NCBI GenBank assembly: GCA_030248065.1 | Contig: JASAMV010008290.1 | Span: 1 to 64,000 of the forward strand | Direction of reading: 5' to 3' | DNA: 64,000 nt | Origin: Rhynchonema sp. JSB1_4 | Taxonomy: Eukaryota; Nematoda; Chromadorea; Monhysterida; Xyalidae | Shown here: positions 5,249-19,184 of the stretch, in pieces | Layout: each line of letters begins with the position of its first letter | Position numbering within the stretch: position 1 is the first letter of the stretch | Translations under genes and position numbers: made by a program | Notes under the pieces: generated by a model | Seen by the model: the letters and a program-made list of their open reading frames with translations, nothing else | Database searches by the model: none | Told to the model about the DNA's origin: nothing

Positions 5249-8200
5249 ATGCAGTTCAATCCCCTTGTCCTGCTGGTCTTAGCCCATGTCTGCTCCGGAC
5301 ATCGAATAGCTGGTGCCCCTCATCCGCGCACGTGTGCCGAGCGAGATTGGTCCAGATGCACGAAGGAGATGTGTGAAAGCTACAACTACAAACATCCCTA
5401 TCGCACCGCGTGCAATCACTTGTGTGGCGACTGCCAAATTCCACAACCACCACCGGCTACGCCTGGTAAATTTTTGATCGATCTTGTGACTTTTTTTCAT
5501 CCAGGTTTCCAGTTGCATTTGTGTTGCACTTTTGCAAACTGCGAGACTTGAAAAAACACAAGCCATCGCGTGCGCAGTGAGGCTCAAATTTTGTAAACCT
5601 TCATGAAAAAGCTAACATTGAATAAAAACACCTATAGCTTTAACACATGCTGTTTTGTTGTGATACTGCACGCTGCCAGATCTTGAACAGGGTAGTCCCG
5701 TCATTTTACGAGTATTCCTCCAAACTGAGAATAGTACAAAGATAAAGACCACCTTTCAAGTTTGATAGGTAATAGAGCGTGACACCCATGTCTTTGGTCG
5801 CATGAGTTCCGTGAATTAATGAAGTTACAAATTCTCGCTGGAAGTCTTTTCTGAAAGTTTCAGCCCCCAAGCCACGACTCATTACACTGTATCGGAAATT
5901 CCACGCAGCGACAGGCGATCACATGGCCACCATTGACCCAAGTGTGTAAACAATACACCTTTCTTTACAAATTTTAGAGACGATTATACAATCATTCTTT
6001 GGTTATTATCATCGTGGTGCGCTTTTAACAGTTTGACCAATAGAAGTTTGTCGAAGTAAAGAAATACGCACATGAAATAGCAACTTTTGGCATCGATTTG
6101 GATAACATTATACCTGACAATTCCGCAGCTTACATTTGAATTCTTTTCCGCAATCTTGAGACGAGGGCCTGGGTCGTTACGTCCACGAGGGCCCTTTTGG
6201 CAAGATCATCCCAGCGTCATACAGATCGCCGAGTAAGTTTGGGGTAGGGGCCCGCGAAAACTGAGTGCCCCGCGGGGCACGCGGGTGGTGCGGGTGACCT
6301 TTCTATAACACACGGGCATATGCCCCCCGCAGCGTCCGCGGGTCCCCCGCACCCACCCGCAGCACACGCGGGGCCCCCGCGGGTGGCGCGGGGCCCGCAC
6401 TCCCCCGCGCTGGCCGGCGCAGGCTGTTTTTAATGAATATTTGGTTTTTTAAGTGAAGCTTTACAGCTGAATGGGTGAAATAAATGCAGAGTTGAATTTA
6501 TATGTTGTTTACCGTGATAAAAACGTGTGTTTAGCAAAGAGCTGGGATTTTTGGATTTGTAACAAAGTCATTATGGCAGCACAAAAAGACCAAAAGTGCG
6601 TCATTTGTTTACGTGTATTTACTTGTAAATGCAATGTCAAAAGCAAAATCACCCTGAAACAAGAATTGCTGATGCATTTTAGTCGAAGACGGATACGGCA
6701 TTAATTTCCAGCTAACCGCAGAACAAGTAATAGTTGTGAAACTCCACGGCAAAAACAGTGATTCAGTGAAACAGTGAAACAGCTGCTAGATTCCAAAGTA
6801 CAGAAACATAGGTATGACGATACATTTGTCCCCAAAAACAGTAATTTGCGCTGAACAGTAATTTAAACAGCAAAAGTGTGTGACGAAACAAATGGTGAAA
6901 CATCATCTTTGACCATAAAAATTAAGTCAACATAAGCAGTTGATCAGTACCCTGCATATTCGCGATTCACGGGGTTCGCATTTTCAGCGATGTACCTACA
7001 TATGTAGTTTTGCGTCGTGTCTCGCTTGTTTCGCACTGGTCCTTTTTGGTACAGTACTTTATGTCTGGTGATTATGTGCCATTTGCTAATTGCAGCTAGC
7101 CTGTCGAAGACTATCTATAGCTTCGAATTTGCTTTTTTTGAGCAGATTTTTGTATCATAAGTCTACATTTTATCGTGCGTTTTAGTCAAAAAGTGCAAAT
7201 TTTACATCATGTTTCATGTGCAATTTATTCGTCAATCACAGGTTTTATCGATCAGTTATCATTTAGATCATGTAGTTTTGTTCAATATCGATACTTTAAT
7301 GCCATCATTAACATTTATACTTGCGCGCAAATGAAGAAGTAAAAGCTATTTTCCTGTATAATAACCTGCATTATTAGCTTTGATGTGGACTTTAGATGCA
7401 GAATTATGCTGCCAAACTGACTTTGTTACACGTCCAAAAATCCCAGCTCTGGGCTAACGGCGAACTTAGGTTAAATCCGGAATCCGGAATCCGGAAATAA
7501 TTACATGCAAAAATAATAAACTATTTCCGGATGCAGAACACCACGTGCGTTTTCCGGAAATATTTCCGGATTCCGGTTTCCGGATGAAATTTTGGTTTTG
7601 CGTTTTCCGGAAATATTTCCGGATTCCGGATTCCGGATGAAATTTTGGTTTTGCGTTTTCCGGAAATGAAATCTGGACGTCAAGTCATCAGGTCCCTCGA
7701 ACGAACAAAGAATATTTATGTCCAAAAGGAATTTAAAACGCACATGGTAATGATTGTGTACATTGTCGTTCTGTCGTTGAGTCTTTTGTTTATTATTGTT
7801 GGATTTGTACGCATTTTGTCGTCTCAATGAAAAATGATCAATTTAGTTGGGTTATTGCTGAAATAAAGTTTTCTAGCGGAGGACAGATCAAACTGGTGAA
7901 CATTTTTATACGGTAATGCCAAATATTTTGAACAGACCTCAACATGGTGATAACAGTTATGGAAATCAGCCTGTACTATATTACATGACTATGAAACAAT
8001 CTGTCCTGTGTTGTCGCAAACTTTTTAATCAAGTTGCTCGCTCACCTGCACCACCCGCACATTTTGCCTACCGTACCTTGCTGTTCATCGAAGAGTTTGG
8101 TTGTAGGTTAGCAGAAGTTCGCCCTTGTACCTACCTACATCTGCAGTTTATCTGTTCATTTGTTTGTTACGATGCATATCTCATCATATGCGACTAAAAT

Positions 8201-10810
8201 GACGTTTCACATTCGTGAACAAAATGCAGTTAAAAACAACAAGGTATTAAATCTGGAGCAAAAGTCACATCGCTTACAATAAACTTGCACCAAATACTTA
8301 AAAAAGTGATTGGTTTGAAAAAGCAATGTATCCCTAGATCGTGTTATGTAATTTAAACAAATCAGCAACAAAGGTCATGCAGCGCAGCTTATTGTAATGT
8401 ATAGTATGTATTTATCAGGTGCATAAAACACAAGGAGCGAACACATCAACGACAACACCGAACAGCAGTTTCCGCGTGCTGTTTGGTCGAAATATTTCCG
8501 GAAAACGCAAAAATAAAATAGTCATCCGGAAACCGGAATCCGGAAATATTTCCGGATTCCGGATTCCGGATGAAATTTTGGTTTTGCGTTTTCCGGAAAT
8601 ATTTCCGGAAAACGCAAAAATAAAAAAGTCATCCGGAAATCGGAATCCGGAAATATTTCCGGATTCCGGATTCCGTGTTCTACCTAAGTCCGCCCTAAAC
8701 ACACGTTTTTATCTTCGACAGGCTAGCTGCAATTAGCAAATGGCACATAATCACCAAACATAAAGTACTGTACCAAAAAGGACCAGTGCGAAACAAGCGA
8801 GACACGACGCAAAACTAGGTACATCGCTGAAAATGCGAACCCAGTGAATCGTGAATATGCAGGGTACTGATCAACTGCTTATGTTGACTTAATTTTGATG
8901 GTCAAAGATGATGTTTCACCATTTGTTTCGTCACATACTTTTGCTGTTTAAATTACTGTTCAGCGCAAATTACTGTTTTTGGGGACAAATGTATCGTCAT
9001 ACCTATGTTTCTGTACTTTGGAATCTAGCAGCCGATCACTGTTTTTGCCGTGGAGTTTCACAACTATTACCTGCTCTGCGGTTAGCTGGAAATTAATGCC
9101 GTATCCGTCTTCGACTAAAATGCATCAGCAATTCTTGTTTCAGGGTGATTTTGCTTTTGACATTGCATTTACAAGCAAATACACATAAACAAATGACGCA
9201 CTTTTGGTCTTTTTGTGCTGCCATAATGACTTTGCTACATATCCAAAAATCCCAGCTCTGGGCTAAACACACGTTTTTATCACGGTAAACAACATATAAA
9301 TTCAACTCTGCATTTATTTCACCCATTCAGCAGTAAAGCTTCACTTAAAAAACCAAATATTCATTAAAAACAGCCTGCGCCGGCCAGCGCGGGGGAGTGC
9401 GGGCCCCGCGCCACCCGCGGGGGCCCCGCGTGTGCTGCGGGTGGGTGCGGGGGACCCGCGGACGCTGCGGGGGGCATATGCCCGTGTGTTATAGAAAGGT
9501 CACCCGCACCACCCGCGTGCCCCGCGGGGCACTCGGTTTTCGCGGGCCCCTACCCCCAAACTTACTCGGAGATCTGTACGAGGGCGGTTGGTGCCCCAAA
9601 CGAGTGGAGTTGGTTCGTGCGTACTCTCAATCGCAAAATGATAACATGATGACGTTGAAAAAGCATGGTTCGCCAAGAGTAGCTCAAGGTTCGGTGTTCC
9701 TGTTCTGTTCTGTTCATAACTCACAAAAATTTTAGGGTCACAAGTGAGATTGAAAGGTGACCGTGGTTGGCTTTACAGCTGGAATGGCCGAACCCGGCGG
9801 TTAACATGGAGAAAGCAAAATCAATTGTACAGTGGGTGGCATTTTCGAAACGCTGTAAAGCTCAGTTGGGTGTAAAGGTCGGTGTAAGCTCGGTCGAAAG
9901 CTCGGTCGGTGTCAGCTCGGTGTAAACATGAAACATTGCACAGCAGGCAATGTTTCATGTTTACACCGAGCTGACACCGACCGAGCTTTCGATTGAGCTT
10001 ACACCGATCTTTACACCCAACTCACCTTTACACCGTTTCGAAAATATCACCCAGTGTCTTGTGCTCAACATTGGTCGAGTCCTGGCAAGTGGCAAATACT
10101 TTTTAGTGAAGGAGAAATTGTTATACTAGGCCGCCCTAGACAAACGCGAAGAGCGAAAGCGAAAAGTTGGAGTTGCTGTTGTGCTTAACTTTTAGCTTTT
10201 CGCGTTTGTCTTAGGGCGGACTTAATGCACAGTTCGTGTGTCCTACTGTAAATACTTTTTTCTATTTTTCGAAAAAAAAAGATCACGAGTTAGTTCTCCC
10301 TTCTTAGCGATCGTGAACGACGGTGTCCGATTTTTTATACCGTTTTGAGTTGGTTTCCCAACGTTTCAGATTACCGATTCAAGCACACGCTCGGCTACTG
10401 CATGCAGTCACAAACATGCGGAGCCAACATTCCGATCTACGGAGTGCGATTCTGGAACTTTTGGAAACAACAACATGATCACCATTACACCAAGGATGAG
10501 GGAGAATACAACGGAAACATTGTTGGTGCTATTTTTTGTACACACGCAATTCTGTTTCGTTTATGACAGGCACCGCCGAACTTAATATCATGAATTCGCC
10601 ACAAGTGGAAGTTGAAAGTGGACATAACAGCAAAAGAAAATGTCCGCCAAAACGAAAAAGTTTTCCAATTGCTTTTTCCCGCAAGAGATTCACACGATTC
10701 CACCATGGTTGCGCTTGGTCCAATGATTTTCTGGGATCAAATTTCTCTTAATTATTTTGCAGAAAAGCGGCGGCCAACCACTTGGCATCGTATGCTACGT
10801 GTGGCCTTGA
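5249..10810 (+). CDS. Secreted ShK + DUF5648-like repeat protein, gene 1 (exon 3 split by a transposon)
   Basis: Predicted exons: 5249-5465, 5864-5941, 6161-6232, 9572-9667 (or to 9688), 10370-10521 and 10763-10810. Exon 1 encodes a signal peptide (MQFNPLVLLVLAHVCSG) and a six-cysteine ShK domain ending CGDC, then a proline-rich linker. Later exons carry three repeats of the kind seen in DUF5648: LYRKF...GDHMATIDP, GGWCPKRVELVRAYS and IPIYGVRF...HHYTKD. The protein ends CYVWP. The start is the ATG that opens the signal peptide. All exon phases match the tandem paralogue at 16.6 kb. Exon 3, continuous in the paralogue, is interrupted at the second base of a Tyr codon by the foldback element 6222-9576. 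The donor and acceptor I list for it lie in the element's ends and keep frame. The alternative is that the gene is simply broken. Function is unknown; a secreted, disulphide-stabilised sugar- or protein-binding role is a guess. Confidence 0.7.
6222..9576. mobile_element. Foldback DNA transposon with TA duplication inside a coding exon
   Basis: The ends are inverted copies (CAGATC, one mismatch, then CCGAGTAAGTTTGGGG) flanked by TA on both sides (6220-6221, 9577-9578), a Tc1/mariner-style target. Arms of roughly 0.9 kb (about 6222-7119 and 8715-9576) are near-perfect inverted repeats. They include a very GC-rich outer 150 bp and a 77-codon open frame that is the same in both arms. No transposase was recognised. 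The centre holds a second element (7458-8695). The left end contains GTAAGT at 6233-6238 and the right end contains an AG at 9570-9571. Confidence 0.85.
7458..8695. mobile_element. Nested element with CCGGA-rich termini and TAA duplication
   Basis: It sits within the foldback element. TAA flanks both ends (7455-7457 and 8696-8698), splitting the sequence GGGCTAAACACACG that is intact in the other arm at about 9259. The terminal repeat is near GGGCGGACTTAGGTTAAA followed by tandem CCGGAATCCGGAAATATTTCC words that form many small palindromes. Three-base TAA targets suggest the PIF/Harbinger group. The interior has no recognised gene. A 179-bp relative lies at 21095-21273. Confidence 0.65.
9834..10052. 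mobile_element. MITE (GGGTGATATTTTCG family), copy 1
   Basis: A long imperfect hairpin of 219 bp in intron 3 of the first ShK gene. The two arms contain CGGTGTAAAGGT and AGCTCGGTCGGTGT words. It is flanked by AGT on both sides, a 3-bp duplication. The same family is found at 17072-17274. Confidence 0.75.
10130..10222. mobile_element. Short hairpin MITE (ACAAACGCGAA arms)
   Basis: About 93 bp with inverted arms CCGCCCTAGACAAACGCGAA and TTCGCGTTTGTCTTAGGGCGG. It is in the same intron as the previous MITE. The outer GGGCGGACTTA matches the terminus of the element at 7458-8695, suggesting a related transposase. Confidence 0.6.
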
Positions 10811-16608: not shown

Positions 16609-19184
16609 ATGCACTTGCTCAGACCCCTATTAGGTCTTGCAGTAGCCCACGTGTGCTTCGGTTACAATATACCGCTGAACAGTTGCCATTTATCGGACTC
16701 AAGGAACTGCAATCTTCGATGGTGCGATGATCGCTTTTATCGGTCGTTCTGCCTGCATTTGTGTGGCGACTGCGAAGAAGAGGAGACCACCGAAGAGCCT
16801 CGCACAACACCAAAGCCAACGCCTGGTAAAATTTTCGCGCTGATTGTTGATGACTGGAGAAAGACAAGTCCAAGCCTAAGCCTAAGCCTGTAGAAAATTT
16901 TATGCAGATTTGCAGTTTCTTTGGTCTGATGAGTTTGTTATACAGCGCTCAACTGGCTTAACATTGACAGATATTGTAACAATTTTCAGCGCCACGCCCA
17001 ACGCTCATCCCATTGTATCGGCGTTTCAACCTGTTGATATTCGATCATATGGCCACAACCGATCCAAGTATGGGTGATATTTTCGAAACGGTGTAAAGGT
17101 CAGTTGGGTAGGCGGAAAGCTCGGTCGACAGCTCGATCTAAACTTGAAACATTCCACGTTAATAACAGGCAATGTTTCACGTTTACACCGAGCTACGCCG
17201 ACCGAGCTTTCGACCGAACTTTACAACGACCTTTACACCCAACTGACCTTTACACCGTTTCGAAAATATCACCCTATGACGGCGACTTTGTTGGCAATAA
17301 ATCGTATGAAAGCTACGACATTGCTCTGACAACGTTCTTGAACATTATCGACAGACGCTCGGTAGCCAAAGAAAAATCAACACCCTTTAGCAGGAGCAAT
17401 ACTTTCGAAAAATTTCCAAATATGTGTAGGACAGTGCACTAATCAAAGGACATTATAAGGCTATAGAAAATAAAAGCGTTGTCAAAGAACGTGATCATAG
17501 TATTAGCCTGCAAAGATGGTACAACGTTCTGAATTACATTGAACGGACAAAAAATCTAGAAGCGGCCTTAAAGTTAGTACCATATCCCAGATGAGGGAGC
17601 GGGTCGCTACGGAAATGAAGGCACGTTTGGCAATATCATCCCTGCTTCCTACAAGGGCGGTTGGTGCCCCAAAAAAGTCGAGTTGATTCGCGCATACTCC
17701 AGGGCAGGACAGGACAACATGTTGACTGTGTCGCGAAACAACCTGCCATCAGGTGAGCGTTGCGGCTTGATGGCATCACCCATGGCAAAAGATCACCTCT
17801 GTCATGGACCATGGCAAATCGACCTTGGATGTGGGCTGTGTTGGCATATTCCACTTTTAACAAAGAGCTTTTTGATGCCATAGAATATCCAAATTGACTG
17901 CTTTCACACAAGAAATGTATGATGCTGGATGATGGATCTTTCTCAGGCTACACCATCGATAAGACACTCGGCTACTGCGTGAAATCGAGCGCGTGTGGCG
18001 CCACGGTCCCGATTTATGGGATACGATTCAGCAAATGGGTGACTCATTTCAATCACCATTACACCAAGGACGTAAACGAGTACAACCTCAACAAGGTTGG
18101 GAGGGATATTATGTAGACTGGAAATCTGCTACCCTGCACAACGTGTAGCGCTGTGGCGATTAAAGCAGTGTGTGTCTGCACGGTTGCATGGGTATAAGTG
18201 GCAACTTTGAGCCACAGCCAGACCGCGTTCCCGTAGCTCAGATGGTAGAGGAACTGACTGTCCAGGCCTGGTGGCTGGTAGGTCGCAGGTTCGAGTCCTT
18301 CCGGGAGCAAGACATTCTGCAAAAGAACGGCAAACTGCACAGTGCCAGTGGTTAATAAAAAAATTTTTTTATTCAAACCCCATTTTTTTTTAAAAAAAAA
18401 TTTTTTTTTTTAATTTAAAAAAAAATTTTTTTATTCCAGCCAAAAACTGCCAGAAACGAAAAAAAAATGAGCGCTAAAGCAAAAAATAGTGGCATTTTTC
18501 TTCCATAACGTGTGGTAAGTGCATATAAAGCACTCACGACACGAAAACAATACTAAACAATGGTCAATGAGTACCAACAGTAGTCAGGTACACACCCGTA
18601 CACTTCCTCCACGTGGTGTGGGTGCCTTGGTGTGGCTTTGTGACACTCAAGACGGTAAATTTGGGTGAAACTATTGCCTCTTGGTACACGACCAATGCAA
18701 ATATGTGACAAACAGTGTAAATATAGAGTGAATATCACACCGAATCACTGCTTTCGGGTCTGTTGCATGGATAAATGCATGCCCACCCAGTCACATGTAC
18801 ATGTGTAATCATATGAGAGGCCATGTGAGTGTGTGCACTATGTCTAGATGCCACAAAACAACGATTATGGCACCCAATACACCCATGGTAGGGTCGGGTG
18901 ATGTTAACAGTAGCAATTTTTATGCAAAAAATAGCACTTTTAGAGCAAAAAAATAGAGAAATTTTCGAATTTTGAAATAATAAAAAAAAAAATTTTTTTT
19001 TTAACTTTTGGAACGAATTTTTTTTTTTAAAAAAAAAATTTTTTTTTTAATAAAAAAAAAAAATTTTTTTTTTTAAAAAACCACTGCACAGTGCAACTGC
19101 AACTAGGAATCACAATAATCTTTCTCTTTGCAGCTGGCGCTCTTCAGTCATCCCCTCGACATTCTGTGCTATGTATGGCCTTGA
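16609..19184 (+). CDS. Secreted ShK + DUF5648-like repeat protein, gene 2 (218 aa)
   Basis: Predicted exons: 16609-16825, 16990-17067, 17591-17752, 17947-18095 and 19134-19184, open throughout for 218 codons. Exon 1 is exactly as long as in gene 1 (217 nt) and encodes a signal peptide (MHLLRPLLGLAVAHVCFG), a six-cysteine ShK domain (C-7-C-4-C-8-C-3-C-2-C) and an acidic/threonine-proline linker. The remainder has the repeats LYRRF...DHMATTDP, GGWCPKKVELIRAYS and VPIYGIRF...HHYTKD, ending CYVWP. Such Y-R...DHxxTTDP...G..P repeats are typical of DUF5648. Introns 1-3 are phase 1 and intron 4 phase 0, as in gene 1. A MITE occupies intron 2 from three bases after the exon; intron 4 holds a tRNA-like repeat and a hAT-type element. 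Probably secreted; ligand unknown. Confidence 0.75.
17072..17274. mobile_element. MITE (GGGTGATATTTTCG family), copy 2, touching a splice donor
   Basis: A 203-bp hairpin flanked by TAT on both sides (17069-17071 and 17275-17277). The left TAT is part of the donor of exon 2 (GTAT), so the element begins three bases into the intron and supplies donor positions beyond +4. Confidence 0.8.
18227..18308 (+). repeat. tRNA-derived repeat (SINE head or tRNA pseudogene)
   Basis: The ends GTTCCCG and CGGGAGC pair as an acceptor stem. A box A (TAGCTCAGATGGTAGAG) and a perfect box B (GGTTCGAGTCC) are present. The middle, CCAGGCCTGGTGGCTGGTAGG, does not form an anticodon stem with a seven-base loop. It is therefore likely a tRNA-derived promoter unit and not a working tRNA. 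It lies in intron 4 of the second ShK gene. Confidence 0.55.
18346..19086. mobile_element. hAT-type non-autonomous element, A/T-rich
   Basis: Termini CAGTGGTTAATAAAAAAA and the inverse, with an exact 8-bp duplication CACAGTGC (18338-18345 and 19087-19094). CAGNG ends and 8-bp duplications are typical of hAT. It contains long runs of A and T that form hairpins and no gene. It ends 47 bp before the last exon of the second ShK gene. Confidence 0.8.

Follow-up and report, generated by a model that had tools for sequence, protein, structure and literature searches.

A foldback transposon in a predicted coding exon of a nematode gene carries candidate splice sites in its terminal repeats

A foldback DNA transposon of 3355 bp (6222..9576, no strand assigned) splits predicted exon 3 of a gene that matches the DUF5648 family. 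The insertion, the TA duplication at its borders, a homologous site without the element, splice signals inside the terminal repeats and a length that would keep the reading frame are read directly from the DNA. On these features, the element is best called a splice-capable transposon insertion. The tentative explanation offered here is that a recent foldback insertion carries terminal-repeat signals that may lead to its removal by the spliceosome from some transcripts, with six residues added in frame. Partial splicing is narrowly preferred over a plain null allele. Positions are those of the window, which is the whole stretch of DNA analysed (64 kb of contig C5083); the genome searched is 204 Mb in 5747 contigs.

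The ends of the element are mutually inverted and start with CAGATC[G/T]CCGAGTAAGTTTGGGG. The left inverted arm (6222..7110, forward strand) and the right inverted arm (8712..9576, reverse strand) match at 95% across 890 columns of a self-alignment. Each arm is about 0.87 kb and together they account for about half of the 3355 bp, which makes this a foldback element. The TA target-site duplication, read in the sequence and by comparison with the empty copy, is located at 6220..6221 on the left and 9577..9578 on the right (neither copy has a strand). Insertion of a transposon inside a coding exon of a predicted gene is close to certain. A second palindromic element is nested in the foldback transposon (7458..8692, no strand assigned) between TAA duplications at 7455-7457 and 8693-8695. 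It is rich in TTCCGGAAATATTTCCGGA, and its 3-bp duplication suggests a PIF/Harbinger-like origin. The window's copy is of the 2.1-kb type, close to copies L055 and L045, plus this nested element. L055 (2131 bp) has uninterrupted sequence where the nested element lies in the window.

The host gene (gene 1) has four predicted coding exons, all on the forward strand, based on comparison with its paralogs, among them the neighbouring gene 2. Exon 1 (5249..5465) is the cysteine-rich part and is modelled from gene 2 and the copy on contig C3860. Exon 2 (5864..5941) holds the start of DUF5648, and is placed by the four-exon frame and by its effect on the DUF5648 score of gene 2. The left half of exon 3 (6161..6221, TA target included) is joined to 9579-9688 in the empty copy. 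The right half (9577..9688) ends at the predicted donor CAAG/GTTCGG, and exon 3 as modelled is in phase 1 at its start and at its end. The last part of predicted exon 4 (10370..10566) has an indel relative to the C3860 copy. Inclusion of the exon-2 equivalent raises the match of gene 2 to DUF5648 (Pfam PF18885, cut-off 25 bits) from 21.5 to 29.3 bits. With the element taken out, the four-exon model of gene 1 scores 36.5 bits, above the cut-off. This model replaced a three-exon model without exon 2, in which gene 2 fell below the cut-off for DUF5648 and the partial gene 1 was unmatched. A sequence-only reading of this DNA had named the host 'ShK gene 1', and here Pfam gave a different answer: DUF5648, and no match to an ShK family up to an E of 1. 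Because Pfam finds no ShK domain, the name is a mere label. The cysteine pattern of exon 1 could be ShK-like, a resemblance that is only suggestive. No protein relatives were found for the three-exon model of gene 2 or the four-exon model of gene 1, and a search for a solved structure for gene 2 returned none.

The copy of the gene on contig C3860 has a single TA at the position of the window's element and is therefore an empty site. It is collinear with the window on both sides of the element over about 8.9 kb of C3860, with indels present. Identity is 92-97% over most of the gene (97% over 752 aligned positions across the site and 92% over the following 575) and 76-89% farther out. Exon 3 is also unbroken in gene 2 (17591..17752, forward strand, by sequence comparison) and in the related exons on C3860, C2394, C658, and C4336. 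These four contigs carry all the related exons, besides gene 1, that were returned by a genome search with exon 3 of gene 2. The sequence-only reading had placed the element at 6222-9576 with its TA duplication, splitting an exon 3 that is continuous in gene 2; the comparison bears this out, and self-alignment adds the inverted arms. Judged from the alignments, the C3860 copy is the pre-insertion site, in either an allele or a duplicate. Because it is empty and the four other paralogous exons are uninterrupted, the insertion is derived and recent, younger than the split of the gene 1 and C3860 copies. An assembly artefact was considered and is ruled out by the perfect TA duplication, the 127 family ends described below, and the separate contig with the empty site.

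A genome search for other ends of the CAGATC type had been proposed with the sequence-only reading. The pattern CAGATC-CCGAGTAAG, which is the terminal repeat of the family, has 127 ends genome-wide (58 + 69) when up to 3 mismatches are allowed; a control with the pattern reversed has 0. A TA lies outside all 65 distinct ends with a readable flank; a few of these flanks are alike, so the 65 are not all independent events. Both ends were located at 25 sites, and the rest of the 127 ends have their flank read on one side or neither. A TA is present on both sides in 25 of the 25 sites, two of which have imperfect flanks (mirrored at C2772, and only 3 bases long on the right at L044). These counts, with the single TA of the empty site, agree with the TA target-site duplication of the Tc1/mariner superfamily. 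Terminal repeats starting with CAG are typical of Tc1/mariner-like elements. The window's insertion is the only known exonic one among the 25 sites.

Copies range in length from 143 bp (from end positions) to about 5 kb. Fifteen of the 16 copies read contain no stop-free frame longer than 116 aa, and in this and in the TA duplication the family is like Tc1/mariner-like non-autonomous and foldback elements. It differs from them in that an autonomous partner was not found here among the DDE_3 matches, which occur at 9 places in the genome; of the contigs with such a match, C2366 alone also has a listed family end, about 12 kb away. A DDE_1 search was silent, as was its control. Three copies have unusual features. 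L051 (C1517, 2426-7427) is a 5-kb copy with an interior frame that has CCHC-like zinc knuckles, giving the impression of a Pao/BEL-type gag. L054 (C2088:8800-17700) consists of two foldback-family copies with mirrored flanks. At L060 (C2772:6026-7700), one copy has flanks that mirror each other in 25 of 25 bases. The mirrored flanks of L054 and L060 may be an inverted duplication or an assembly effect.

The left terminal repeat contains a candidate donor, GTAAGT (6233..6238, forward strand), read in the sequence after the first base of a codon. The right terminal repeat contains a candidate acceptor AG (9570..9571, forward strand) in the weak context CTCGGAG. Together they define a predicted phase 1 intron of 3339 bp (6233..9571, forward strand). 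Joining 6232 to 9572 would lengthen exon 3 from 171 nt in the empty copy to 189 nt in the spliced form, as modelled, which is 18 nt or six codons in frame. The sequence-only reading had described both signals at these positions and both within the terminal repeats, the left end and its inverse, and had predicted that removal of 6233-9571 keeps the frame. All of this agrees with the sequence, and its count of 15 extra nucleotides is corrected to 18. Location of both candidate sites within the terminal repeats, with the frame kept, is what is expected of an introner as far as the DNA itself can tell. The predicted spliced product is open through the four predicted exons and scores 35.9 bits for DUF5648, against 36.5 for the empty gene (cut-off 25). 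The consensus end of the family would leave an 18-nt residue with zero stops in all three frames, and for this reason an in-frame outcome is expected at any landing site and in either orientation. Among 200,000 random 26-nt terminal repeats starting with CAG, a GTAAGT donor occurred in 0.5%, the donor with a frame-keeping AG in 0.14%, and the donor and AG with all frames open in 0.07%; this last share rises to 2.9% when a loose donor (GTRNG) is allowed. The splice-ready layout is thus uncommon for a random terminal repeat, which is suggestive only, being judged post hoc among many repeat families.

The donor hexamer is retained in 91 of the 100 listed ends; 27 further ends, counted but unlisted, are more diverged. 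The 26 variant ends among the 100 have 37 mismatches, 9 of which fall in the hexamer, where 10.1 are expected. The donor is conserved no better than the rest of the terminal repeat, and selection for splicing is not apparent in the family. Four related ends have CGCGCAAGT and lack the GT donor. Most simply, the splice signals would be a by-product of the sequence of the terminal repeat, since a donor in an inverted repeat serves either orientation and the consensus residue has a length and content that suit every frame. Variant ends with CAGATCTCCGCGCAAGTTTGGGG (4 listed; C538, C699, C1694) are two substitutions away from the GTAAGT donor. With these ends it could be asked whether the donor had a single origin that preceded the spread of the young copies.

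Partial splicing, the preferred explanation, would require that gene 1 is transcribed. U1 would recognise GTAAGT close to the left end, whose full complement follows in the transcript only after about 3.3 kb. The acceptor would be the first AG past a C-rich tract. Removal of the 3339 nt from part of the transcripts would then give a product with six extra residues and the frame kept. The efficiency of such splicing would probably be low: the acceptor is poor, the complete RNA is predicted to enclose donor and acceptor in a single stem, and even an incomplete transcript is predicted to have most of the donor paired locally. The acceptor CTCGGAG differs from those of the other predicted introns in the gene family, which end in CAG and in several cases in TTTCAG. 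A GAG ending is otherwise predicted only in intron 2 of gene 1 and of the C3860 copy, where the model may be weak or wrong. The predicted intron is also long: its 3339 nt compare with 164-681 nt in four other introns predicted in this gene family.

The RNA from 6161-9690 has a predicted fold energy of -2240 kcal/mol. In the full fold every donor base has its partner in the sequence immediately preceding the acceptor, and a very stable predicted hairpin buries both splice sites. With folding limited to the first 200 to 2400 nt of the element, five bases of the donor hexamer are already paired, their partners lying in 6409-6414. Two opposed forces would meet in one RNA: placement in inverted repeats makes the splice signals usable in either orientation, but is also predicted to bury them in a hairpin.

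An ordinary loss-of-function insertion, in which the transposon is left unspliced and the loss is tolerable, is nearly as probable as partial splicing, and each of the two is held at somewhat less than an even chance. Translation of unspliced RNA would run through 13 codons of the element and then meet a stop. Loss could be tolerable because an intact, nearly identical copy is present on C3860 (allele or duplicate) along with the other paralogs. The weak acceptor and the very stable predicted hairpin fit a null allele, as does a second transposon nested inside, as found in unconstrained DNA. The conservation of the donor hexamer, not beyond chance, fits it as well. Against a null allele, the remaining coding sequence of gene 1 is open, and dN/dS between gene 1 and the C3860 copy is about 0.30 (0.025/0.083), a value that also takes in the time preceding the insertion. 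The two copies differ in 21 of 212 codons, 11 with an amino-acid change; exons 1-3 are free of gaps, and the last two differing codons adjoin an indel. Constraint is not seen in exon 3 taken alone, since it has four amino-acid differences and one silent difference. Also against a null allele, Rushforth and Anderson, in 1996, reportedly found Tc1 insertions removed from most mutant pre-mRNAs in C. elegans.

A different splicing outcome, with exon 3 skipped or with cryptic sites used in the element or the exon, would leave DUF5648 partly lost or altered and is considered unlikely. The phase 1 ends of exon 3 would allow exon 2 to join exon 4 in frame. The exon-skipped protein scores 22.7 bits for DUF5648 and would probably be non-functional because this is under the cut-off of 25. 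Mixed products have a precedent in the C. elegans allele rsd-3(pk2013), which has Tc1 in exon 1. As reported in the part of the paper dealing with this allele, three of five sequenced cDNA clones retained a residue of 48 bp in frame, and the other two were frameshifted (PMC4910058). The in-frame clones are likewise a nematode precedent for partial splicing. The same part states that the authors could not rule out excision from the transgene array (PMC4910058).

A true introner family, with terminal repeats selected for splicing and copies that create introns genome-wide, is very improbable here. It would be a young nematode family in which the foldback terminal repeats act as an orientation-free, frame-neutral splice cassette, with an empty site still in the genome. 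A perfect GTAAGT, its retention in most of the listed ends, signals in both orientations and a frame-neutral residue free of stops in three frames are all in keeping with it. Standing against it are the lack of excess conservation of the donor and the related ends without GT. Little weight falls on a Pfam scan of the longest junction-spanning frame at 16 of the 24 other sites, which left out 8 with frames of 57 aa or shorter: it found 0 domains above the cut-off, and also missed exon 3 of the window and exon 3 of gene 2. As a genome query, exon 3 of gene 2 does recover the paralogs, unlike the Pfam scan. Copies elsewhere may therefore also interrupt exons. Published introner families have medians of 30-654 nt and are gene-enriched in 161 of 175 genomes, in the portion of the survey used here (PMC9860276); the intron predicted here has about fivefold the length of the highest of these medians. 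The sequence-only reading had seen in the element the layout of a splice-competent DNA transposon similar in principle to introners. The transposon layout stands, with a recent exonic insertion, signals in the repeats and the frame kept. The likeness to a working introner family has so far gained no support, given the ordinary conservation of the donor, the CGCGCAAGT ends and the predicted pairing of the splice sites in a hairpin. A young introner family, if true, would be a source of new nematode introns.

Several known systems resemble the insertion in part. Tc1 has a TA target, as the window's element does. Giroux et al., in 1994, reportedly described maize Ds as a transposon synthesising an intron; Ds belongs to another superfamily and another host than the element studied here. 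With Tc1 in C. elegans exons, the window's insertion shares a nematode host, a position in a coding exon and a residue that keeps the frame, of 48 nt in the rsd-3 cDNA and a predicted 18 nt in the present case. It differs in size and evidence: Tc1 is 1.6 kb and its removal was read from cDNA, according to the account of the rsd-3 allele (PMC4910058), whereas the element here is 3.4 kb with arms of about 0.87 kb and its splicing is predicted. Introners of Aureococcus carry both splice sites and, in the legend of Fig. 2F, add 12 bp (PMC9860276). The window's element is like them in having both sites inside the element and codons added to the protein, as far as that legend describes them (PMC9860276). 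They form families of similar introns in genes, in contrast with the one known exonic case here, whose splicing is predicted. By analogy, splicing here would work like that of a spliceable Tc1 insertion or of an introner of the Fig. 2F type (PMC9860276, legend).

In a survey of 3,325 genomes, introners were found in only two animal groups (PMC9860276). The main text of Gozashti 2022 has no word starting with 'nematode', and a search of the literature on introners and nematode intron gain showed no title on nematode introners among the papers listed. In the results cited here from a study of 104 nematode genomes, a source sequence was found for 0 of 168 novel Caenorhabditis introns (PMC9169325). 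The present case is in a phylum where the sources of new introns are reported missing, going by that portion of the study (PMC9169325). New introns with a nameable source are rare. In the present case a single genome holds the filled and the empty site, the source family and the predicted junction.

Other repeats were noted in the window and the genome. TTAGGC is the nematode telomere unit. Four units of it have 698 matches genome-wide (overlaps counted singly) and the control has 0. This is the main sign of a nematode host in the DNA itself, with the several predicted TTTCAG acceptors as a further one. Interstitial TTAGGC arrays are many and, among the matches listed, are often paired 30 bp apart; one array in the window lies near 16868-16890. 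A genome search with an SL1 model gave no match, and its control was equally silent. Hairpin elements starting with GGTG(G/A)(C/T)ATTTTCGAAACG are present in the window at 9835-10051 and about 17070-17275. The first lies within intron 3 of gene 1, is missing from C3860, and has CAGTG on either side in the window. The second adjoins the predicted intron-2 donor of gene 2.
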